Shown: positions 42,144 to 61,363 of the stretch, in pieces
Numbering within the stretch: position 1 is the stretch's first letter
How the letters are laid out: each line of letters begins with the position of its first letter
Source of the DNA: Treponema sp. CETP13
GTDB taxonomy: Bacteria; Spirochaetota; Spirochaetia; Treponematales; Treponemataceae
Direction: 5' to 3'
Assembly (NCBI GenBank): GCA_001885315.1
Contig: MLPZ01000001.1
Location: 186,001-250,000 of the forward strand
Length of the DNA stretch: 64,000 nucleotides
Program-made: the position numbers and the translations under genes
Notes under the pieces: generated by a model
The model's input: the letters and a program-made list of their open reading frames with translations, nothing else
Told to the model about the DNA's origin: nothing
Databases searched by the model: none

Positions 42144-44273
42144 TTATGCATTTTTTAAGAGGACTTGTTTTTGAGCCTCTAATTCTTTTAATTGCCGTTT
42201 CAGTTTTTTTTCATTTTCAATTTTACATTTTGGACATTCAAAGTGTTCTCCACTTAAGTAACCATGAATAGGGCATACTGAATACGTTGGTGAAATAGTA
42301 AAATATGGAATGCGATAATTGTTAGAAATAGCTTTAACCAAATCTCTACAAGCATGCCAATCTTTTATACTTTCACCTAAGTAAGTGTGAAAAACTGTTC
42401 CACCAGTATATTTTGTTTGTAAGGCTTCTTGATGATCAAGTGCTTCAAATACATCTGTTGAGAACTCAACTGGTAACTGACTTGAGTTATTATAATATGG
42501 TTCGTCTGTACCTGCTGTAATAATATCAGGGAACTGATCTTTATCATGTTTTGCTAGTCGATAAGATGTACTTTCTGCCGGTGTTGCTTCTAAATTAAAT
42601 AATTCATCTGTTTGTACTTGATAATCAGAAAGTCGATTTCGCATATGTGTAAGAACTTTTTCTGCAAAGGCTTTGCCTTTAGGATCAGTTAAATTAACAC
42701 CTAAAAAGTTTAAACAGCATTCGTTCATTCCATTAAGACCAATTGTATTAAAGTGGTTATCTAATGTTTTAAGATATCTTCTTGTGTATGGAAACAACCC
42801 ACCATCAAATAATTTTTGAATAACTTTTCGCTTTATAAGAAGGCTATCGCGAGCTAAATCCATAAGATGATCTAAACGCTCAAAAAACTGCTTTTCAGTT
42901 TTTGTAAGATATCCAATTTGAGGGAGATTAATAGTTACAACCCCAATCGATCCAGTAAATTCATCTGAGCCAAATAATCCACCACCTCGTTTTCGAAGTT
43001 CTCGTTTGTCAAGTCTAAGACGACAACACATAGAACGAACGTCGCTTGGATCAAGATCAGAGTTAAGAAAGTTAGAAAAGTATGGAGTACCATATTGAGA
43101 TGTCATTTCAAACAAAAGTTTTGCATTTGGACTATCCCAATCAAAATTTTCTGTAATATTGTAGGTAGGAATTGGATATGCAAATCCTCGTCCATCCGCA
43201 TCTCCGGCTGTCATTAGTTCAATGAAATTTTTATTAATCATATCCATTTCAGCTTGACATTCACCGTATGTAAAATCTTGTTCTTTACCAGCAACAACTG
43301 CAGGAGTGTTTTTTAAATCTTCTGGTACATTCCAATCAAGAGTAATGTTTGTAAATGGAGCTTGTGATCCCCATCTACTTGGCGTGTTTACACCGTAAAT
43401 AAAACTTTGAAGGCATTGTTTTACTTCTTTTTCTTTCATGTTGTCTTTTTTTATGAAAGGAGCAAGATATGTGTCAAAAGAACTAAAAGCCTGTGCTCCC
43501 GCCCACTCATTTTGTAAAATACCTAAAAAGTTTACAATTTGTTGAATTAGAGTTGATAAATGTTTTGGAGGTGCAGAAGTAATTTTATCTGGTACTCCTC
43601 CTAAACCTTCTCTAATAAGTTGTCGAATTGACCATCCGGCACAGTATCCAGAAAACATTGACAGGTCATGAATATGCATTGCTGCTGTTCTGTGTGCGTT
43701 GGCAATTTCTTCGGTATAAATATTTTTAAGCCAATAATTAGCTGTAACTGTTCCTGAATTATGTAAAATAAGTCCACCAAGTGAAAAATTTACATTTGCA
43801 TTTTCGTTTACGCGCCAATCTTGTTGACTCAAATAGCCGTCCATTGTTTTATTTATATCGAGTTGTAAGTTTTTAGCATCTCGAATTGCTTGATGTCGAG
43901 CACGATATAAAATATAAGCTTTTGCAACATGAACAACTTTTTGTTCGATGAGGACAGTCTCTACAATATCTTGAATTTCTTCAACAGCTGGAATCGAATA
44001 AGTATAACGAGATACCATCATAGTTCTAAGTCTGTCTTCTACAGCAGAAGTGAGTTCTTCTGTTTTATCTGGATTAGGACGTCCTTCGACGCTTATTATT
44101 GCTTTTGCAATTGCGTCGTAAATTCTTGTTCGATCAAAATCCCTTATCTCCCCTGATCGAGTTATTACTTGCTTGATGAACACAGCCGGTTTATCGTCTG
44201 TTGTACCGAGGAAACTTCTCCATTCTGGAAAAATATTATCGGTATTTTTTTTTGAACCATCTGGTTCTGTCAT
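42144..44273 (-). CDS. nrdD: Anaerobic (class III) ribonucleoside-triphosphate reductase, body lacking the glycyl-radical segment
   Basis: Reduces ribonucleotides to deoxyribonucleotides without oxygen. The 709 residues start with an ATP-cone (VITRSGEIRDFDRTRIYDAI, about 30-125) and continue with the ten-stranded barrel, including RSMCCRLRLDKRELRKRGGG, GLNGMNECCLNFLG and the C-terminal zinc site CPIHGYLSGEHFECPKC. After the zinc site the protein ends in a Lys/Glu-rich helix with no RxxGY segment, so it should be inactive alone. The next gene supplies that segment. Confidence 0.93.
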   Translation of the reverse strand: MTEPDGSKKNTDNIFPEWRSFLGTTDDKPAVFIKQVITRSGEIRDFDRTRIYDAIAKAIISVEGRPNPDKTEELTSAVEDRLRTMMVSRYTYSIPAVEEIQDIVETVLIEQKVVHVAKAYILYRARHQAIRDAKNLQLDINKTMDGYLSQQDWRVNENANVNFSLGGLILHNSGTVTANYWLKNIYTEEIANAHRTAAMHIHDLSMFSGYCAGWSIRQLIREGLGGVPDKITSAPPKHLSTLIQQIVNFLGILQNEWAGAQAFSSFDTYLAPFIKKDNMKEKEVKQCLQSFIYGVNTPSRWGSQAPFTNITLDWNVPEDLKNTPAVVAGKEQDFTYGECQAEMDMINKNFIELMTAGDADGRGFAYPIPTYNITENFDWDSPNAKLLFEMTSQYGTPYFSNFLNSDLDPSDVRSMCCRLRLDKRELRKRGGGLFGSDEFTGSIGVVTINLPQIGYLTKTEKQFFERLDHLMDLARDSLLIKRKVIQKLFDGGLFPYTRRYLKTLDNHFNTIGLNGMNECCLNFLGVNLTDPKGKAFAEKVLTHMRNRLSDYQVQTDELFNLEATPAESTSYRLAKHDKDQFPDIITAGTDEPYYNNSSQLPVEFSTDVFEALDHQEALQTKYTGGTVFHTYLGESIKDWHACRDLVKAISNNYRIPYFTISPTYSVCPIHGYLSGEHFECPKCKIENEKKLKRQLKELEAQKQVLLKNA

Positions 44274-50745: not shown

Positions 50746-51418
50746 TACCTTACAAAAAGGAATACAACTGTATACACGAGGTAAATACCCAGATGCGCTT
50801 ACTGTGCTACTTTCTTTGGATCTACCTGAGGATGATGAAGAAGCGCTAGAAATTGCATATTATACAGGGTTGTCCTATGTCCAAATGAAAAGGTACAACG
50901 AAGCTTTATTATATTTAGAGCAGGTTGTAACGGCAACTACCGATGAAAAAAGACTTGAACAATGCAGGCTAACGCTTTCCATTATTTATAATATGACTGG
51001 AAGAGATAAACTTGCTGAATATGAAATAAATGAGCTGTTAGAAAATGGAAATGATTCTTGTGCTGCTTACTGTGCACGTGCTTTTATTGAATGGGAACAG
51101 GGACAAAGCGAGAAAGCTGTAAAAGATTATGAAACAGCGCTCAAATTAGATAGTGAGAGTCCAACAGCATTAAATGGACTTGGTTATGTACTAGCTTGTC
51201 TTGATCGAGAATTAACACGTGCATTATCACTTTGTAAACGAGCTGTAGATATTCTGCCAAATTCACCTGCTTGTTTAGATTCTCTTGGGTGGGTTTACTA
51301 TATGCTAGGATTAGATAAAGAAGCTCAAACGTATATCTCTCGAGCCTATTCGTATAATAAAAATAGCAAAGAGATATATGGTCATTATATAAAAATAATG
51401 AAAGGGGCTGAAGGATAG
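50738..51418 (+). CDS. TPR-repeat protein
   Basis: I chose the start at 50738 (MADTLQKGIQLYTRGKY, 226 aa), overlapping the surE stop by 8 nt, rather than the earlier ATG inside surE. Five to six TPRs are visible (for example YTRGKYPDALTVLLSL, NALGYV-like LNGLGYVLACLDRELTRALS and SLGWVYYMLGLDKEAQTYIS). No signal peptide. It is translationally coupled to surE and the next exported protein; likely a partner-binding adaptor. Confidence 0.8.
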   Translation: MADTLQKGIQLYTRGKYPDALTVLLSLDLPEDDEEALEIAYYTGLSYVQMKRYNEALLYLEQVVTATTDEKRLEQCRLTLSIIYNMTGRDKLAEYEINELLENGNDSCAAYCARAFIEWEQGQSEKAVKDYETALKLDSESPTALNGLGYVLACLDRELTRALSLCKRAVDILPNSPACLDSLGWVYYMLGLDKEAQTYISRAYSYNKNSKEIYGHYIKIMKGAEG

Positions 51419-53460
51419 TGTTAAAACTAAGAAATAGTATACTTTTTTGTTTTTTGTTATTTAGTATGTTCAATCCGCTCTTAGCTCAAGAAAAGGCTAT
51501 ATCTCCTGCCGATTTAGAATTTGCAGAAGAGGATTTCAGAAGAGGGGTTCAATCGTATTATCGTGGATCATACAATGATGCACTCTTACTTTTTGAAAAT
51601 GCATATTCATATAACCCTCAAGATAATCGTATTCTTGATTGGCTTGGAAAAGCGTATTATCGCTCTGGAATAGAAGGGACTTCTCTACAACAATGGCAAG
51701 TAGCTTCTGATGCTGGGTATGGTGGATTACTATTACAAAATCGCATAGATATTGTTTCAAATAGGCGAGTTTCACAAGATTCGAACGAACAAACTTCAAG
51801 TTTTGTTGAAGTAGGAAATTTCCCCGGTTACAATAATGGCAATGTATATTTTAGCCAACCAAGTGCGGTTTTACCTCTTTCAGATGGTACGTTTTGGGTT
51901 GTTGCTTATGGTTCAAATGAAATTGTAAAGTTAGATGTAAACGGTCATGTTCTTTATCGTGTTCAAGGTACATTAGCTGGCTTTGATAGACCAATGGATA
52001 TAATAAAATTAGATGATGGGCGTTTATTGGTTAGTGAATATGCAGGGGATCGGATTTCTCTTCTTTCTTCAAAAGGAGATTTTATTTCTTCATTTGGAGA
52101 AAAAGGATGTGATGATGGTTGCCTGCTAGGGCCCCAATATATGGCTCTCGATTCGAGTGAAAATATATTTGTTTCAGATTTTGGGAATGGTAGAATTTCT
52201 GTTTTTTCTTCTGGTAAAACAGATAATACTGAACTTGGAGAGTTCCTCTTTTCTTTTGGTAATTTTACAGCTCCTTCTGGTATAGCCATAATTAACGATA
52301 TAGTATATGTTGCGGATACTGTTAAAGGTTCTATAGACATGTATGATATTTCTGGAAATTATCTTGGCGTTTTAGTTCAAGAAGGCTCCTTAAATCATCC
52401 TGAATCTATGAAAAAATGGGAAACATATTTGTTGTGTGTGGATGGTCGGCAAGTTATTACAATTGATACAGTAACAGGAGCAATTTATAAAACAGCTAAT
52501 GCTGGATTGAGCGATACAAAACTGACCTGTGCTGCTGTTGATGTTAATAATAATATTATTGCAACAAGTTTTTCAGATAGTGAAATATTTTTAATTTCAC
52601 CAATAACAGAATTAGTTGGAGGAATGTTTGTTCAAATTGAGAGAGTTAATTCTGATAACTTCCCTAAAGTTACTTTAGAAGTTAGAGTCGAAAATCGTAA
52701 AAGACAACCTATTGTGGGGCTACGAGCAAATAATTTTCTTATTACTGAAAATAAACAAATAGGTCAAGAATATGAATTTGATGGGGCTTTTTCTTCTCAG
52801 AAATTATGTGATATAGCAATTGTTTTAGATAATTCTAATTTAGATACGACGGCACAGCATTCTATGGAGCTTGCTGTACAAGAAATTGCTCAGAGTATGG
52901 GTGGAAAGGGAACTCTTACTATTGTTTCTGCTGGCGAAATCCCTGTCTTAGAATATACGGGGTCACCAACAGAAATGCAAAATTTTACATATTCGTCACT
53001 TAAAGGCGTTGCAGGAAATCAAGTCCCAATAGATTTGGGAATTAGACTTGCTGCTACTACAATCATGAATGGAAATAAAAAACGTTCAATTGTATGTATA
53101 ACTGAAGGTCATGATTATCCAAATAGATTTAGTAGTTATGGGCTGGCAGATATTTCAGCTTATTTAAATAATAATGGAATATACTTTTGTGCAGTTACAT
53201 TGCAAAATAATGCACTAGATGCCGGCCTTAATTATATTACTAGCCAAACGCCTGGAAAATCTTATTATGTATATCGAGCCGAAGGTCTTACTAATATAGC
53301 AAATGATATTATCGATATTCCTTGTGGTTTATATCAGTTTTCATATGTTTCTAGTCAATCGACAGATTTTGGTCGCAAATATCTTCCTGTTGAAATAGAA
53401 GTTTATTTGTTAAATAGTTCGGGACGTGATGAAACTGGTTATTATGCACCTTTAGAATAG
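51418..53460 (+). CDS. Exported TPR-NHL propeller protein with vWA-like C-terminus
   Basis: A 680-residue exported protein. Its GTG overlaps the previous stop (TAGTG). A signal peptide (ILFCFLLFSMFNPLLAQ) is followed by a TPR region (about 28-100), an NHL-type beta-propeller (about 125-400, blades such as NVYFSQPSAVLPLSDGTFWV and DRPMDIIKLDDGRLLVSEY), a linker and a von Willebrand A-like domain (about 465-660). The vWA opens DIAIVLDNSNLD; MIDAS DxSxS is changed to DNSNL, so metal binding is uncertain. I recall a treponemal homologue. It is the end of the surE-TPR unit and abuts the convergent dinB fusion gene by one base. Confidence 0.75.
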   Translation: MLKLRNSILFCFLLFSMFNPLLAQEKAISPADLEFAEEDFRRGVQSYYRGSYNDALLLFENAYSYNPQDNRILDWLGKAYYRSGIEGTSLQQWQVASDAGYGGLLLQNRIDIVSNRRVSQDSNEQTSSFVEVGNFPGYNNGNVYFSQPSAVLPLSDGTFWVVAYGSNEIVKLDVNGHVLYRVQGTLAGFDRPMDIIKLDDGRLLVSEYAGDRISLLSSKGDFISSFGEKGCDDGCLLGPQYMALDSSENIFVSDFGNGRISVFSSGKTDNTELGEFLFSFGNFTAPSGIAIINDIVYVADTVKGSIDMYDISGNYLGVLVQEGSLNHPESMKKWETYLLCVDGRQVITIDTVTGAIYKTANAGLSDTKLTCAAVDVNNNIIATSFSDSEIFLISPITELVGGMFVQIERVNSDNFPKVTLEVRVENRKRQPIVGLRANNFLITENKQIGQEYEFDGAFSSQKLCDIAIVLDNSNLDTTAQHSMELAVQEIAQSMGGKGTLTIVSAGEIPVLEYTGSPTEMQNFTYSSLKGVAGNQVPIDLGIRLAATTIMNGNKKRSIVCITEGHDYPNRFSSYGLADISAYLNNNGIYFCAVTLQNNALDAGLNYITSQTPGKSYYVYRAEGLTNIANDIIDIPCGLYQFSYVSSQSTDFGRKYLPVEIEVYLLNSSGRDETGYYAPLE

Positions 53461-53461
53461 G

Positions 53462-56400
53462 TTAAAAGTTAATGTCTCCACCTATACTTATAGTATTTGT
53501 TAGTTCAAAACTATCTGTAGCAAGTAAAATTGTTTCTTCTATGCTCGTGTATATATCTAAAAAATCTGTAATAGAAGCTGTAAGAATATGACTTAAACTT
53601 ATTGAGTGCTCTTTTTCATCATCTGAGTCATTATTTAATTCGTAGGAAAAAGATTCTTCTCGTTCTGCATTTTTAGACTCATCTAAAAACTCAGGTTTAA
53701 ATTGCATTACCAAATCAGTTATAAAACAATCCGGTTTATTCCATGTATAAGTCGCAGATAATTCTAACGAATCAGAATCATCTGTATCAAAATCACTTTC
53801 AAGAGTAAAAGAGAGCATGTCATCATTTTTTATATAAATATTTGTTTGTGAATACAGTTCAATTTCTGTTGTAATTGTATCTTCAAATTTAAAAGTAGCA
53901 CTGGCAGAATTAATAAATTCATCTTCTTCATACCATGAAAATAAGGTATGAGAACCAATCGTACCAAAGCAGTTAAAAGCAGTTCCAGCAATTCCAACTG
54001 ATGTTTGGTATATATCCGTATAGTCAGAAGATGAAGCTTGCACATCTCTTTCTAAAGCAATTGAAGCCGAAGATGGAATAAAAAAGTCGAGGACAGAGGC
54101 AAAAATAGGTCTTTTCCAAGAAAAACCGACGGATGACACTGTTGTATTTGTTTGAATATCTTCATTTGTAAGGCAAGTTTCCATTAATTCTTCTGCAAGG
54201 ATTTGATTGTAAAGCCCTGCAAATGGGTATGCAATCCAAAATGATTTTTGATATGGCAAGGAATTGTACCAATCATAGTAATTAGTAAAATAAGTTGTAT
54301 TTTCAGAAGCATCTGTTGTTGTAGTGCATTTTTTCTTAAAACTAATTTGAAACCCCTGCATGTTTATAGAAAAAGGGATTTCAAATGTCATAGTATTATA
54401 TGCTATGTTTTCATCTGTAGTGTCGTTGTTTGAAGCGTCGAAGGACAAAACCGGGGTTACAGAAATTGCAGGGATTACTACTGTAAGAGTAGAATTTAAG
54501 GAAATTTCTTTATTGGAAGCATCTGTGTCGCCAGTACTAAATTGCAAATTTGAAAGGTTTCCCCAGGAACTAGTAAATGCATTTGTTGTTATTGAATCAA
54601 ACTGTGAACAAACAGGGCTATCTAAAGATTGACTTGCACTTCCTTTAATATACAATGTTGGCATTAAATATGTAAATATTGGATTGAGACGAATACTAGA
54701 AGAAAAATCTTGTTCTGCACTTGTTGTGTCGGTCGTTGCAGAGGCAGAAGAAGATAGTGTTAACGGAATTCCGATCTTAGAGAGCTGAATCTGTGCTTTT
54801 GAACTGCGTGTTCCTTCAAGAGCGACATAGTTTGTAGAAAAATTGGTGCTATCTTCTCCAGAAAGTATGTTAAATAGTATACTTTTTTCAAAATTTAGAT
54901 TGTTTGTTTTGAGCGAATATCCAAGGCCTGTAAATTCTAGAGTAGTTGTATCTGCATCAAATAATGAATTTATGCTAGTAGAAATATCTAAAAGAGGAAT
55001 TGTTGTTTCTGCAGTTGCATCTGTTTCGATAATAGCACTGGTTTCTGTTGAATATTGGTCTCCGTTACTTATAGAACCTTCTGAGTTTATATCAAGAGAG
55101 GTGTCTTGGGCAAAAATAAAACCACTAGAATTTGTAAAATCTTTTTGTTGTGCCCATGATAGAGCGAGAATATCGGTGATTTTTGCTTCTAATTGTGTTT
55201 CCGAAAAATATATTTCATCAATATATAACGAACCACTATTTCCGCTAGCTTCTGCTAAAGTTTGTGCATCACCATAATCATCTGTTTGTAAAATCTCTAT
55301 TGTAAGACAGGTTGGCGAAACATCTGAGTCTATGCTGTACGAAAAAAGACTTTCATCTATTGTTACATCGTTTATCGAAAGTGTTTTATTTACCATGTCA
55401 AATGAGCATTTCTGCCAGTTATCTTCAAATTTGCTCACTGCATCTGGATACAAGGTGAGTGTTATGGCGTTGTCGGTGTCGTCTGTATCAGGTCGGTCAA
55501 ATGAAAATGTAATAGTATAATTTTCATCGCTATCAAAATAGGCAAAAAAGTTTAAGGTGCTGTATTCGGAGAAGGGAATGCTGTCGGTATACTTTACAGC
55601 TGTAATTTCAGTAATATCTGTATCATCATCTATACTTGAATCTCCACTCCATGAGATTTCTTGAACGTAATTGGTAGAATCTGTATTAAAGGTGAGCATT
55701 TCTGCCAATTGAGTTCCCGCACTACTTGGTGGAAGAATCTCTTTAGTTTTTACCGATGAATATCCGTCTGGGCAGTTTGCAGCAAAGGATACTTGCGTTA
55801 CAGAACATGTTTGGATTATGAGAGGGGACTCTTCATTCCCTTCTTCTGTCGAACTTTCAATAATAATACGTGCACAGGTATTATCATCTATGCGAGCTCT
55901 GTCTACGTCACTAAGAGTAATTGTGTAAGTCGAATCTACATATAAATCTTGATTATTAGGATCGAGATACCGTTTTGGTGAGAGAGATGTTACTTCTCCC
56001 GTGTCAGAAACACCTAATTGTAGATATGCTTTACAATCGGGCTCATTTGTTTCATCATAAGCAAAACAGTCTCCATCGAGCCCTTCAAGTTGAATAATAA
56101 ATTCTTGGGCGGTTGCAATACTTGATGAAGAGTCAGCAAATTGGAATGATTGGTATGCGGTCCCTTTATTCTCTTCGGTTATGCTTTCATCAGTGAAATT
56201 AGTGGTTAGTGTTAATTCATAACCTGTTGTTGTCTCTGATCGACTAACACTCGCTTCTATGGACTGAGAAGCGTCATCAATTATTGGATCGCTGTCCAAA
56301 TATAAGGTTATAGGTTCATCATCATTCATGCTAAAAACTCGTAAATTTCCTGAGATATTATTTTCTTTTAAGGTTCCCGCAATTGTGTTGTTTAGAGAGA

Positions 56401-59374
56401 GTGAATCGGTGTGTAAATTTGTGTTAAATGCAAGGGTTGCAGACAGGGAAGTTGTATCATCGAGTGTAAAATAATCAGTGTCTTCAAGAATAGGATAAAA
56501 AAACGACCCAGAAATATTATAATCAAAAAAAGTAGATACTGTTTTTTTAAATCCGACTGCAACAGTTAATAATCCTGTATCGGCATCATCATCATATTCT
56601 GACCATTTTATGAGTATTGTGTCGACATCTGAAGGATTTGGAGATAGGGTGACAGTTCCATCGTCACTATCGTAAATAAAATTTTGTTCTTTTATACCGT
56701 TTCGATATACTTCAATAGAACTTGTTGTGACATTTGTTCCAATATTCAACTCATCTACACTAGAATATGTCTCTAAAGATAATTCTAAATCTGTTAGTGG
56801 TTCATCACTTACATATACAGATGGATTTGTTTGTGCAAGTGGATATCGATCAAGCAAAACATCATCTACACTGTATACCTGTATTACGGTAAAACTGTCT
56901 CCAAAAAAATCTGTATCGGTAAAAGTTCCACCAAAAAGGGATGAATTTTCAAGTGTTTTTGCTGCAAAATCACTAGACGTTGATTCAGAAGATTCATATT
57001 GGACTGTTACAGATTCTGCTGTTTCGCCGGATGATGTTTTATAGAGAGAATAATCAGCAAAAGGAGAAAAGCATCCTGAACGCTGTAGATACAGTGCCCA
57101 AGATTCAGAACTTGCTATATCAGAAGAAGAATCAGATGTGCTACCTGTATTAACAAAAAGGTATTCAAGATTAGTATCACTAGTTTCTCCTCCACATAAC
57201 TCAGTAAAATCGACTTGTATACCTTCTTTGTCGAGTCCTTCGTCGAATGTGGTTTGTATAGTCCCTAAAAAAGAGCTGGAATCATCCCACCCCCCCAAAT
57301 CACCTTTTAAAGTATCATCAGAATAAGAGGTAAAAAAGCGAACAAGGATATTCCCTGTCTGAGCATTTTTAAAGACAATAGAATTGATTGACGGTAAAAG
57401 CATGTAATCATCTGAACTAATAATTTCATAATATTTTCCGTCCTCATCGACATAATCAACGTCAGATTCGTCTGTATCCTCGTCTACTTCGAGCAATAGT
57501 TCAAAAATATTGTCAAAAGCTTCTTCTGGCAGCTCGAAACGCAGACTCCCATTATATTCATCAAGTCCTATCGTTGTTTCTGTAACTTCGTTTTGACCTA
57601 CCCATTCTTTTTCATAGCTTTCTATTTTATCGTAGCGTATAATCGAATTAGCCTGCCAATCGTCTCCACTCCATTCTGTCATAAATCCGGGCATTTGTGA
57701 TGAATTATCACTACTTCCATATCCTACATCTGAAATACCGTACGTATCAGGAAAATCAATATATCTGTTTCCAATTCTAGCATGTTTTAAAAAACCATCC
57801 CCATAATAGCCTGCAGCAACTGTATTGTTATCAAAGTCATCGGCTACATTTGCTTCAAAATACCACGTTTTAAAAAGAAAAAACCATGCAGTAAGATCTA
57901 CATCTGTATCTAAAACAAAAGAATCTTGTTCAAAAGAAACGGAATCATCATCACTGTCTTTTGAAATAGTAGAAGAAGCAGTTAAAGATGTATCCCATTC
58001 TCCCTCGGCAAAAAATTCTACATTTTCATCATCCGAAGATATTTCGTATAAAGATTCAGGGTCTTCAGCTTCTAATTCTTTGGGAAAGTCTATCGCATAT
58101 AATGAACTTTTAGATTGTAGTGATGTTGGTGAAGGGGTAAAAAAAGTACAGACAGGAATAAAAAGTGCAAAAATAAAAGCAAAATTATGCCGTCTCGCTG
58201 GATTTTTTGTAAGAAGCCGAGCTTTTTGTATTTTTATATTTGAATCTTTTGATTGAATATGCATAATGGTGTTTTCAATTTTACGTTTTTTTTCATCACC
58301 AAAATCAAATAATTCCGCTTGTTGAGGAATATCTGAACTTTCTAGATTTTGTGCTCCACACCCAATTAAGCGAATTCCTCTATCCTTTTCGTGCTTTTTA
58401 TGAAATAGTGAAACAACTCTACTATAAAAATCATCTGTAGAAAGAAAACATCGGTCTGTGGTAATTTGTGCAGTTAATGTTGTAAAATCTTCATACCGTA
58501 TTTTTATAGCTGCTGTCTTGCTGTTCCAGCCTTTTTTCATCATTCTAAAAAAAATTTCATAGCTTAAGTCCATAAGCGTTGTTTCTAATATATAAGGATC
58601 TTTTACATCCACTGGGAAAGTTCGCTCAGAACTAATAGAATGCGATTTTGCTTTTGTATTAAATTTTTCAGTTATATTGCCACGAACAGCATTTGCTAAA
58701 AAATGGGCTGTAGTCGAACCAACGATGCCCGCGAGCATGTTTTCAGACGCTGCATGCAACAATTGTGTAGAATTTATACCAGCTTTTTTAAGCTTTTCTA
58801 GAGTTTTATTTCCAAGCCCCCAAATTTTATTTAGAGGCAAAGAAAGCATAAAGGATTCCTCATCTCCATTTTTTATATAATAAATTCCGTTTGGTTTTTT
58901 TATATCAGATGCTATTTTTGCAATGTATTTATTCGACGCGAGCCCTATAGAAACGGTAAGTCCTGTTTTATCAAAAACTTCCTGTTGAAGTCGTTTTGCT
59001 GTATCAATAGGATTTCCAAATAGTTTTTCTGTTCCTGTAATGTCAATAAACGCTTCATCAACAGACATTTGTTGAACATCAGGTGAATAGTTACAAAATA
59101 TTTGCATTACTTCTTGTGATTTTTCTTGATAGCGTTTCATTCTGCCTCTCAAAAAAATTCCTTGGGGACAAAGTTTATAAGCCTGAAAAATAGGCATTGC
59201 AGAATGAATCCCAAATTTACGTGCTTCGTAGGAGCAAGTTGAAACAACTCCTCTTTTGTCAGTTGGCAAACTTCCTACAATAACTGGTTTGTTACGATAC
59301 TCAGGATTGTCTAATTGTTCTACAGAAGCAAAAAATGCATCTAAGTCAACATGCAGAAACTGGGGATTACTCAT
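53462..59374 (-). CDS. dinB: DNA polymerase IV joined in frame to an exported outer-membrane-type protein
   Basis: One uninterrupted frame of 1970 codons. Residues 1-391 are a complete DinB: HVDLDAFFASVEQ, SVDEAFIDITGTEKLFG, SIGLASNKYIAKIAS, the WGLGNKTLEKLKKAG hairpin and an LFDFG beta-clamp motif near the end. From about residue 392 a signal-like segment follows (PARRHNFAFIFALFIPVCTF) with a probable cleavage after SSLYA (about 428). The remaining 1540 residues are acidic, Ser/Thr-rich, beta-strand-rich and end in F (TNTISIGGDINF), as outer-membrane barrels do. The only internal ATG before the signal is Met371, without a Shine-Dalgarno. It may be a read-through of two genes after stop loss, or a real fusion. 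Confidence 0.8.
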   Translation of the reverse strand: MSNPQFLHVDLDAFFASVEQLDNPEYRNKPVIVGSLPTDKRGVVSTCSYEARKFGIHSAMPIFQAYKLCPQGIFLRGRMKRYQEKSQEVMQIFCNYSPDVQQMSVDEAFIDITGTEKLFGNPIDTAKRLQQEVFDKTGLTVSIGLASNKYIAKIASDIKKPNGIYYIKNGDEESFMLSLPLNKIWGLGNKTLEKLKKAGINSTQLLHAASENMLAGIVGSTTAHFLANAVRGNITEKFNTKAKSHSISSERTFPVDVKDPYILETTLMDLSYEIFFRMMKKGWNSKTAAIKIRYEDFTTLTAQITTDRCFLSTDDFYSRVVSLFHKKHEKDRGIRLIGCGAQNLESSDIPQQAELFDFGDEKKRKIENTIMHIQSKDSNIKIQKARLLTKNPARRHNFAFIFALFIPVCTFFTPSPTSLQSKSSLYAIDFPKELEAEDPESLYEISSDDENVEFFAEGEWDTSLTASSTISKDSDDDSVSFEQDSFVLDTDVDLTAWFFLFKTWYFEANVADDFDNNTVAAGYYGDGFLKHARIGNRYIDFPDTYGISDVGYGSSDNSSQMPGFMTEWSGDDWQANSIIRYDKIESYEKEWVGQNEVTETTIGLDEYNGSLRFELPEEAFDNIFELLLEVDEDTDESDVDYVDEDGKYYEIISSDDYMLLPSINSIVFKNAQTGNILVRFFTSYSDDTLKGDLGGWDDSSSFLGTIQTTFDEGLDKEGIQVDFTELCGGETSDTNLEYLFVNTGSTSDSSSDIASSESWALYLQRSGCFSPFADYSLYKTSSGETAESVTVQYESSESTSSDFAAKTLENSSLFGGTFTDTDFFGDSFTVIQVYSVDDVLLDRYPLAQTNPSVYVSDEPLTDLELSLETYSSVDELNIGTNVTTSSIEVYRNGIKEQNFIYDSDDGTVTLSPNPSDVDTILIKWSEYDDDADTGLLTVAVGFKKTVSTFFDYNISGSFFYPILEDTDYFTLDDTTSLSATLAFNTNLHTDSLSLNNTIAGTLKENNISGNLRVFSMNDDEPITLYLDSDPIIDDASQSIEASVSRSETTTGYELTLTTNFTDESITEENKGTAYQSFQFADSSSSIATAQEFIIQLEGLDGDCFAYDETNEPDCKAYLQLGVSDTGEVTSLSPKRYLDPNNQDLYVDSTYTITLSDVDRARIDDNTCARIIIESSTEEGNEESPLIIQTCSVTQVSFAANCPDGYSSVKTKEILPPSSAGTQLAEMLTFNTDSTNYVQEISWSGDSSIDDDTDITEITAVKYTDSIPFSEYSTLNFFAYFDSDENYTITFSFDRPDTDDTDNAITLTLYPDAVSKFEDNWQKCSFDMVNKTLSINDVTIDESLFSYSIDSDVSPTCLTIEILQTDDYGDAQTLAEASGNSGSLYIDEIYFSETQLEAKITDILALSWAQQKDFTNSSGFIFAQDTSLDINSEGSISNGDQYSTETSAIIETDATAETTIPLLDISTSINSLFDADTTTLEFTGLGYSLKTNNLNFEKSILFNILSGEDSTNFSTNYVALEGTRSSKAQIQLSKIGIPLTLSSSASATTDTTSAEQDFSSSIRLNPIFTYLMPTLYIKGSASQSLDSPVCSQFDSITTNAFTSSWGNLSNLQFSTGDTDASNKEISLNSTLTVVIPAISVTPVLSFDASNNDTTDENIAYNTMTFEIPFSINMQGFQISFKKKCTTTTDASENTTYFTNYYDWYNSLPYQKSFWIAYPFAGLYNQILAEELMETCLTNEDIQTNTTVSSVGFSWKRPIFASVLDFFIPSSASIALERDVQASSSDYTDIYQTSVGIAGTAFNCFGTIGSHTLFSWYEEDEFINSASATFKFEDTITTEIELYSQTNIYIKNDDMLSFTLESDFDTDDSDSLELSATYTWNKPDCFITDLVMQFKPEFLDESKNAEREESFSYELNNDSDDEKEHSISLSHILTASITDFLDIYTSIEETILLATDSFELTNTISIGGDINF

Positions 59375-59377
59375 ATG

Positions 59378-61348
59378 TTAATCTCCTAGATTTTCTGACG
59401 CATTTATAATAATTTCTTTTGTTTTAGAAATAACTGTATCATTTATATCATAATAAGCAATCGTTTTGCATTTTATTGTATGATTCGCAGTATATGAGAA
59501 TTTAAGGTTTAACGGTTCTGGGGGATAGGCATCGAGGTTAAAAGTTGCAATGTAAGGAGCCCCGAGAATATCATATGGATAATTTGCTTCTAAAATCGGA
59601 ATTTGATTTTGAGATTCAAGAATTATTTTATAACGTAACACTGGAATTCGGGATGAAACTTGTAAATCAACGAAGGAACGACCAACAAGTTGATTGTAAG
59701 AAGTTGTAAGTGTTAGAATATTAGAAAGTTCAGTCATGTTATTATTTTCAGTTTTTTTTAAGTCAGCAGGTAAAACCTCTAATGTAAAAAGTACTGACCC
59801 TATAATAAACAATATTATAGCACTAGCCGTGATTATGGCTCGAATTACAGTTTTTTTTATTGTTGCAGTAGGATGACGGCCCCATATTTGTAGACGAATT
59901 GCAATTCTAATCATCATAATTTCAAATGGGACAAGAGCCCATGAAAATAAAAAATTAATTTTTAAAGAGGTGTTTTTAATTAAATTTAGACTATATGAAT
60001 CAGCATAATAAAAAAATGACACTAAATATGGTACATAGGGTACTAACATACAGAACATAATTAAAACAATATAAATAAGCTTTCGAGTCTTTCGTGTAAT
60101 ATAAATAATGATATATTCTATAATAAAAACTACTGCTAAAGGTAAATCGACAGATGCAAAAATAAAAATATTTATCAAAGAAACAATTGTCAGTAAAAAA
60201 CCATAAATAAATCCTGTCATAGGAAAGTTAAAAATCTGTTGTGCTAATGAAAAGAGTAAAACAAAGAGAATAGTAAAGATTATTTTTAAGAAAAAAATAA
60301 AAAGAATATTTACAGTAGTATCTGAAATTATTAAGTTTGTTAAATTTTGTGATAAGATAAGAAATATAAGTGTAATTATTACTGCCAAGGGAATAATAGG
60401 CCATGCTTTTGCAAACTCTTTTCTATGTATGTAGCTGTGAGCTCCATTCACAAAAGATAAACCAAATGATAAAAATAACATAATTGCAATAGAAATAATC
60501 ATTAATATTACATACATATATTCACTTACGAATACTGTATAATGTGAGAGGTGTATCAAACTGTAATGTATATCAGTTATTGAACTGTCCCAATTTTCGC
60601 TTTCAGACATAAATGTTTGTAAAAATTGAAATACCTGTATTACATTTGAGTTAGTTAAATCAATTGAAATTGCTGGGACACCTTCTTGTAAAAGGTAAGA
60701 AAGAGTTTTTGAGGTGTTAATTAATCCTAATCGATATAAGTTAAAAAAGGTCCCTTTTATTCTGTATGAAATATTTTCTTTGTTGCACGTTTTTATAATT
60801 GTAGAAAGAACAGAGCTTGAACATACAACTCCTTTATTATTTTCAGATCTTCCACCTGGAGTAATTACAAAATCAGGAGAAGAATTATTTTTATCATAGT
60901 CTAAGTGAAGTAATAGTGTAGATTCTTTATTGTCTAAAGAACTAATATAAGTTTTGGTTCCTGCTATAGTTTTTTCTGAGCTTTCATCTGCTGCAGTAAA
61001 TATAAAGCTAATAATAGGTCTGTTTGTTGAGTTCTTTTGTAAATAAGTAAAGAGGTTATTAAAATTTTTAAGATATCTGCCAACGTAGTCTTGTGAAACT
61101 AAAATTGATACTTTATTATTTTCAAGTTCTGATTTCTCATTGTTAAAAGTAATAATTATGTTATAAGGGAAATTGTCCGATAAAGAGTTAGAAAGTAATT
61201 GTTTTTGGGGATGTAAGTTTAAATCTTCAAAATAGAAAAAAAGTTTATCTGATGTTATAGTCTGTGATGATTTTAGCGATGTTGCGAGTAGTGACCCATT
61301 TGCGATAATAAATAAAATCACAAATGCAAATATCCGCCGATTGTTCAT
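59378..61348 (-). CDS. Gaa1/M28-like multi-pass membrane protein
   Basis: A 656-residue protein (ATG at 61348; an upstream TTG adds five residues). A signal-anchor (RIFAFVILFIIANGSLLA) is followed by a periplasmic domain of about 270 residues with RPIISFIFTAADESS, LLLHLDYDKN and a Ser-Gly-rich stretch, reminiscent of the M28 aminopeptidase fold, then about seven membrane segments. This order resembles Gaa1 and ER metallopeptidases of eukaryotes. The usual zinc residues are not evident, so it may be inactive. It ends 3 nt before the dinB fusion, in the same transcription direction. Confidence 0.6.
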   Translation of the reverse strand: MNNRRIFAFVILFIIANGSLLATSLKSSQTITSDKLFFYFEDLNLHPQKQLLSNSLSDNFPYNIIITFNNEKSELENNKVSILVSQDYVGRYLKNFNNLFTYLQKNSTNRPIISFIFTAADESSEKTIAGTKTYISSLDNKESTLLLHLDYDKNNSSPDFVITPGGRSENNKGVVCSSSVLSTIIKTCNKENISYRIKGTFFNLYRLGLINTSKTLSYLLQEGVPAISIDLTNSNVIQVFQFLQTFMSESENWDSSITDIHYSLIHLSHYTVFVSEYMYVILMIISIAIMLFLSFGLSFVNGAHSYIHRKEFAKAWPIIPLAVIITLIFLILSQNLTNLIISDTTVNILFIFFLKIIFTILFVLLFSLAQQIFNFPMTGFIYGFLLTIVSLINIFIFASVDLPLAVVFIIEYIIIYITRKTRKLIYIVLIMFCMLVPYVPYLVSFFYYADSYSLNLIKNTSLKINFLFSWALVPFEIMMIRIAIRLQIWGRHPTATIKKTVIRAIITASAIILFIIGSVLFTLEVLPADLKKTENNNMTELSNILTLTTSYNQLVGRSFVDLQVSSRIPVLRYKIILESQNQIPILEANYPYDILGAPYIATFNLDAYPPEPLNLKFSYTANHTIKCKTIAYYDINDTVISKTKEIIINASENLGD

Positions 61349-61363
61349 TATTAAACAATACAA

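Follow-up and report, generated by a model that had tools for sequence, protein, structure and literature searches.

Can a cytoplasmic DNA polymerase and an exported outer-membrane protein (OMP) be made as a single chain, and what is the exported part? The question is raised by one open reading frame in the stretch of Treponema sp. CETP13 DNA analyzed here (the window: 64,000 nucleotides, positions 186,001 to 250,000 of contig MLPZ01000001.1 in assembly GCA_001885315.1). The original prediction had described a Y-family polymerase that runs without a stop into a signal-peptide-like segment and an outer-membrane-type protein. It reasoned that two such proteins should not share a chain, and that either the dinB stop had been lost and the exported part was made from an internal start, or the product was processed, or the fusion was genuine. 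We confirmed the reading frame, which runs on the minus strand from the ATG at 59374 to the TAA ending at 53462 and has 1970 codons with no internal stop. Its contig is 440 kb long and the assembly is 99.9% complete. The features of the locus, in window coordinates, are as follows.

53462 to 59374, minus strand: fused open reading frame (DinB, internal signal, SprA-like OMP), 1970 codons plus TAA; the same fusion is found at 61 distinct loci.
59383 to 59387, minus strand: AGGAG Shine-Dalgarno sequence, 8 nt before the dinB ATG (59372 to 59374), read from the sequence.
58205 to 59374, minus strand: DinB, residues 1-390 (palm/fingers, HhH, little finger, C-terminal tail), with catalytic D10, D106 and E107, assigned by domain models and a structure model.
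58307 to 58321, minus strand: QAELF (Q352-F356), a putative beta-clamp-binding motif close to the DinB end that fused and unfused forms both retain.
58205 to 58225, minus strand: KARLLTK, residues 384-390, the natural C-terminus of DinB; A385 and R386 are invariant in the alignment of fused proteins.
58139 to 58183, minus strand: hydrophobic core of the internal signal, about residues 398-412, FAFIFALFIPVCTFF, read from the sequence.
53465 to 58093, minus strand: predicted exported SprA-like OMP of about 1543 residues, from alignments A1-A3 and a homologue model that matches SprA.
59378 to 61363, minus strand: upstream operon neighbor of 661 aa with many hydrophobic segments, 3 nt before dinB; it resembles GAA1 by eye only.
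51418 to 53460, plus strand: convergent NHL/VWA-type gene that ends just past the fusion, from domain searches.

The fusion is real. We surveyed DinB in 395 genomes of the class. Outside the window's family, most carry an ordinary DinB of 390-450 codons, and about half of the family genomes listed have DinB within a frame of 1300-2100 codons. Searched with the OMP part, 79 of 145 family genomes yielded relatives, which are 21-44% identical to it and mostly lie in frames of 1100-2100 codons. We collected 61 distinct fused loci, 18 loci scored as split, 32 in which dinB has no adjoining OMP, and one that was undecided; loci were gathered by similarity and these counts are not prevalences. In-frame joining at 61 distinct loci is far beyond chance, and it contradicts the premise that a polymerase and an exported protein should not share a chain. 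The named fused genomes are those of T. ruminis (CP031518.1, complete), T. parvum (NZ_CP054257.1, complete), T. berlinense, T. bryantii and T. lecithinolyticum. Because they include isolates and two complete genomes, the fusion is not an artefact of assembly or of metagenome-assembled genomes (MAGs). Its recurrence in isolates, complete genomes and many MAGs excludes both an assembly error or chimera and a recent stop loss. Comparison with related treponemes, the check proposed at the outset, found the fused form at these 61 loci and separate, ATGA-overlapping genes in basal relatives. A 1135-codon DinB frame in a genome of another family (G230) had no OMP match and was taken as a high-GC open frame.

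The N-terminal half of the fused frame is an intact DinB. Matches in Pfam and NCBIfam bear out its assignment as a Y-family polymerase: residues 1-352 match the Y-family models (IMS, E 2e-54; IMS_C, E 4e-18), the DNA polymerase IV model scores 323 bits against a cut-off of 256, and the IMS, HhH and IMS_C domains are all above curated cut-offs. The catalytic residues D10, D106 and E107 are invariant at all 61 fused loci, which also have a QxxLF-type motif, a putative clamp motif by its sequence; we take QAELF to be this motif from general knowledge. In a structure model of window residues 1-1200, DinB residues 1-342 were predicted at a pLDDT of mostly 80-90, and Foldseek matched the model to DinB, Dpo4 and Pol kappa. 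In the model, the confident polymerase is followed in turn by a helix, the signal (a weakly predicted helix), a disordered linker and a beta domain. The protein resembles DNA polymerase IV in having the whole polymerase, the catalytic triad, the little finger, a clamp-type motif and the usual C-terminal tail. It differs in that the fused frame runs on into an exported OMP and in that the DinB tail appears to double as the n-region of a signal sequence. The window's genome also encodes a second Y-family polymerase, which is UmuC-like (L002, G000:C4:91015-91848).

The unfused relatives suggest how the fusion arose. In most split loci, the dinB and OMP genes overlap by four bases (ATGA), and the OMP has its own ATG, usually a good Shine-Dalgarno sequence (median SD energy of split OMP starts, -6.9) and a normal signal peptide. 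The dinB starts in relatives have a median SD energy of -5.7; in the window, no good ribosome-binding site was seen for the fusion other than the AGGAG before dinB. Two loci that were scored as split read as fused loci with one defect each and were entered as fused on the DinB tree. One (L069/L006, G108) has a frameshift at an A-run in the dinB tail, attributable to sequencing error or phase variation, and in the other (L149) an assembly gap of two Ns breaks the fused frame. Fused and split forms have a common gene order, GAA1-like gene, dinB and OMP, with the convergent NHL/VWA gene behind. Where enough flank is available, the 661-aa GAA1-like gene tightly precedes dinB in almost every fused or split relative; a Pfam search of this upstream protein returned no family. 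OMP-less genomes often have the NHL/VWA gene directly after dinB. In one of them (G013), DinB ends KARFFIKLFAAAVLPFLQFIGVPAVF, which by its sequence is likely the remains of the signal, and in another (G001) a signal-like sequence is kept behind a stop. At L071, L116, L117 and L137, the OMP genes have moved away from dinB; at L116, the OMP gene shares a GTGA overlap with the end of the frame upstream of it.

A tree was built from DinB residues 1-348, with the tail omitted. One large clade in it (support 98) contains 63 fused rows, 25 rows without the OMP and 2 split rows, and the other split rows lie outside it in another part of the tree. The simplest reading of these sequences would be one ancient fusion followed by repeated OMP loss and rare re-splitting, with the tree stopping short of proving a single origin. 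The nested lineage L115 is split again, which shows that the fusion can be undone. The fusion probably derives from two translationally coupled, ATGA-overlapping genes, the state still present in basal relatives.

How the exported part begins is recorded at the junction. DinB in the window is followed by a hydrophobic segment (residues ~398-412) and then by an acidic, beta-rich protein with a terminal Phe. In 60 of the 61 fused loci, the start of the hydrophobic core falls in the interval from 3 residues before to 22 residues after the natural end of DinB (KARLLK), and the 14 residues before the core contain 2-7 Lys/Arg. Because the core begins at the end of DinB with Lys/Arg before it, the DinB tail can be read as the n-region of the signal. 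At the remaining locus (L143, Treponema sp. RUI378), which is fused with an insert of ~80 residues between DinB and the signal, no hydrophobic core was found at the junction. An [AVST]xA site lies behind the core in 44 of the 61 loci and a strict site is absent in 17. The possible signal-peptidase site in the window, after A427 (58094; between LYA and ID), is weak and lies ~30 residues past the start of the core.

The segment behind DinB, mostly disordered in the model, has 26 distinct lengths between KAR and the first conserved OMP motif, all in frame and ranging from 28 to 86 residues. This variety demonstrates a dependence of the OMP on the reading frame, but not any usefulness of the fusion itself. 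In pooled close pairs, dN/dS was 0.07 for DinB, 0.06 for the tail, 0.38 for the signal, 0.13 for the linker and 0.12 for the barrel. Synonymous divergence (dS) was not lowered at the junction, which gave no indication of a hidden ribosome-binding site. Between the clamp motif and the signal core, ATG, GTG and TTG are all absent from 29 of the 61 fused loci, and 32 have at least one. A start lies no more than 25 codons from the core in 31 fused loci, none with an SD energy <= -5, and a search of the fused loci for a shared start position with a good Shine-Dalgarno sequence near the junction found none. In the window, Met371 (codon 58262-58264) is the sole in-frame ATG between the DinB clamp motif and the signal; as originally stated, it lacks a Shine-Dalgarno sequence, with ATTGAAAACACCATT in front of it. 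There is no sign of a second start in the nucleotide sequence. Given the in-frame linker lengths, the dN/dS values and the lack of starts, we read the OMP as part of the DinB frame.

The exported part was recognized by its fold. The 1580 residues that remain after DinB had no match in Pfam, NCBIfam or PDB sequences, and the OMP of the window ends in a BAM-type terminal strand (..ISIGGDINF). For the T. bryantii homologue, a structure model of 1200 residues, lacking the N-terminal part and built from a 43-sequence alignment, reached a pLDDT of 83.6 and has dozens of long strands. The four best PDB matches to this model in Foldseek were SprA (E 1.4e-16 to 8e-9), followed by LptD (7e-6). In VIA-align, SprA aligned over the whole length, 983-991 of the 1200 residues, at Z 16.8-16.9; the other barrels listed align at most about 410 residues, and many reach Z 14-17. 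Coverage, and not Z alone, sets SprA apart from other barrels in these model comparisons. The approximate number of long strands in our count is compatible with the 36 strands of the SprA barrel (PMC10994853). The window's own barrel was modeled in part (pLDDT 74), and the best 50 PDB matches to the model of residues 1-1200 were all Y-family polymerases, with nothing on the barrel; the window OMP is linked to the SprA-like fold by homology to the modeled relative.

We call the protein SprA-like, and not SprA, because the SprA sequence models TIGR04189 and PF14349 failed to match the OMP. Its likeness to SprA (PDB 6h3i, 8gl6; PMC10994853) lies in the modeled whole-length fold match and the very large barrel, in its co-occurrence with proteins that end in a CTD-like domain, and in the presence in the genome of a UPF0164 protein, a candidate member of the PorV/PorQ family. 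Unlike SprA, it has about 1140-1700 residues rather than 2100-2400, occurs in spirochaetes, is fused to or overlaps dinB, and is not matched by the SprA sequence models. The original assignment to an outer-membrane type held, and the fold of the homologue model supplies the SprA-like identity that it had not given. What stands is that a repair polymerase and a SprA-like barrel were fused long ago and have been maintained in one frame, which is a stronger case than the original prediction had made.

Candidate substrates of such a barrel are encoded in the same genomes. The window's genome has one 2884-residue protein with a C-terminus like the T9SS CTD (L174/L200; G000:C6, CTD 43751-44080). Of 140 family genomes, 69 have related C-termini, on frames of 580-7300 codons and almost exclusively alongside the SprA-like OMP; these 69 genomes gave full-length matches to a CTD profile at E <= 1e-37, and matches in the others were weak and partial at E >= 1e-7. 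Among the 140 genomes, 68 have both OMP and CTD, 8 the OMP only, 1 the CTD only and 63 neither (Fisher p 1e-29), and phylogenetically independent pairs on well-supported branches all point in the same direction (6/6). Five of the 8 OMP-only genomes are at most 81% complete (G007, G015, G026, G039, G079). In G001, from which the OMP has been lost, a 33-codon remnant of a CTD protein, GMYFMRVYGAGIDETRKIMLEKC, persists (L201:3544-3642; G001:C22), by its sequence an apparent case of correlated loss of the two. The T9SS model TIGR04183 matches at the C-terminus above cut-off in 42 of the 140 genomes and below it in the window's genome, and FlgD-type Ig models match the CTD-like domain at least as well. 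The UPF0164/PorV-PorQ-family protein of the window's genome (L175:1351-2658; G000:C17), which has a TPR-like C-terminus, matches PorV_fam at E 1e-23 with 83-84 bits against a cut-off of 90, making it a candidate partner of the SprA-like barrel. UPF0164 proteins are also known from T. pallidum papers; a T. pallidum-like genome (G019) has no SprA-like OMP.

The type 9 secretion system has been described as confined to Bacteroidota (PMC7906972, PMC7463736, PMC10994853). Treponema goes unmentioned in a BLAST survey of the oral microbiota with 16 T9SS proteins (PMC11705866), our search of the literature on the T9SS with spirochetes or Treponema found no T9SS reported in Treponema, and that on Treponema with DNA polymerase IV or dinB found no fusion described. 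Reduced sets in Ignavibacteria have SprA, PorV and Plug without the other T9SS proteins (PMC11705866). The treponemes resemble these in having a candidate translocon without evidence for the remaining system, and differ in that SprA is recognized there by sequence and the treponeme OMP by fold alone. The data hint at a T9SS-like system in spirochaetes, with a translocon that may usually be encoded within a DinB fusion, as its C-terminal part.

We consider it probable that the fused frame encodes a polyprotein with two destinations. Translation would begin at the dinB start codon only, and DinB would fold in the cytoplasm. Its tail, KARLLK, would supply the positively charged n-region to an internal Sec signal, which starts at once. 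The chain downstream would be exported behind the folded enzyme, and signal peptidase would cut behind the hydrophobic core. The freed C-terminal part would become a giant barrel in the outer membrane, and DinB would retain, at its C-terminus, a hydrophobic tail lodged in the inner membrane. The SprA-like barrel would probably act as a translocon that carries one giant surface protein, or a few of them, with a T9SS-like CTD, across the outer membrane. The fuller proposal, that the Treponema group has a type 9-like outer-membrane translocon for giant tail-bearing proteins of the surface, which most members make only as the C-terminal part of a DinB polyprotein cleaved by signal peptidase, with DinB held at the inner membrane, we advance tentatively, as possible and a little short of probable. 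Proteins of the ToxR, CadC and RodZ type have a cytoplasmic N-terminal domain, which binds DNA in ToxR and CadC, and stay in the inner membrane. The fusion shares with them a cytoplasmic N-terminal domain, one hydrophobic segment and an exported C-terminal part; it differs in that they remain whole in the inner membrane, whereas its exported part is predicted to be an outer-membrane barrel with a likely cleavage site.

Two of the possibilities raised originally, a true fusion and a processing step, are joined in this proposal: the fusion is ancient and maintained, and the sequence favors processing at the internal signal. The third, a lost stop with an internal start, is disfavored. It would have each protein made separately, DinB at its own start and the OMP at an internal one, so that the fused chain was irrelevant. 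Met371 exists, 32 of the fused loci have some start codon between clamp motif and core, and a product consisting of DinB only fits ordinary biology. Against this stand the 29 loci with no start codon, the lack of a good Shine-Dalgarno sequence at any start within 25 codons or at a shared position, and the unremarkable dS; unfused relatives have both a start and a Shine-Dalgarno sequence. Moreover, with no stop after DinB, a DinB made from its own start still carries the OMP. We regard two separate products as very unlikely. An uncut chain, in which DinB would be tethered across the inner membrane and periplasm to the barrel, would draw on the mostly disordered 28-86-residue segment behind DinB and on the weakness of the window's cleavage site. 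However, a typical signal-peptidase motif follows the core in 44 of the 61 loci, and such a tether would keep a DNA polymerase at the envelope, an arrangement that unfused relatives manage without; we judge it highly improbable.

The barrel could also be a large one of a different sort, resembling LptD or serving as a giant porin or adhesin, with no secretion translocon involved. Large barrels look alike, LptD itself is among the matches and many barrels score well in Z, and the SprA sequence models found nothing. Yet among the barrels listed only SprA aligns with the whole model, at far better E-values, and OMP presence tracks proteins with T9SS-like tails in every independent pair. We find another kind of barrel unlikely. 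That the fusion is a neutral relic, a stop lost once and tolerated by export, is the alternative to which we give most weight, as a genuine if lesser possibility. Separate genes with the ATGA overlap serve basal species well, the split state has returned in at least one nested lineage (L115) and many lineages have lost the OMP; on the other side, the fusion has been kept across a large, deep clade through all 26 in-frame linker lengths. Within the two-destination polyprotein that we prefer, the fusion may be of use, through dosage coupling or a membrane-held DinB, or may merely be tolerated.

If polymerase and barrel are maintained on one chain, they form a striking single precursor for two compartments, and Sec signals would be able to act behind a folded enzyme of 390 residues. 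Lists of treponemal OMPs are probably incomplete, because predictors of signal peptides and OMPs that are based on the N-terminus miss such proteins. Should the barrel prove to work as a SprA-like translocon, the T9SS would have a divergent spirochaete relative with candidate giant substrates, and the origin of the T9SS would become testable. The split ATGA form is found together with one CTD protein at L064 (G048:C1, 2,843,201 bases).
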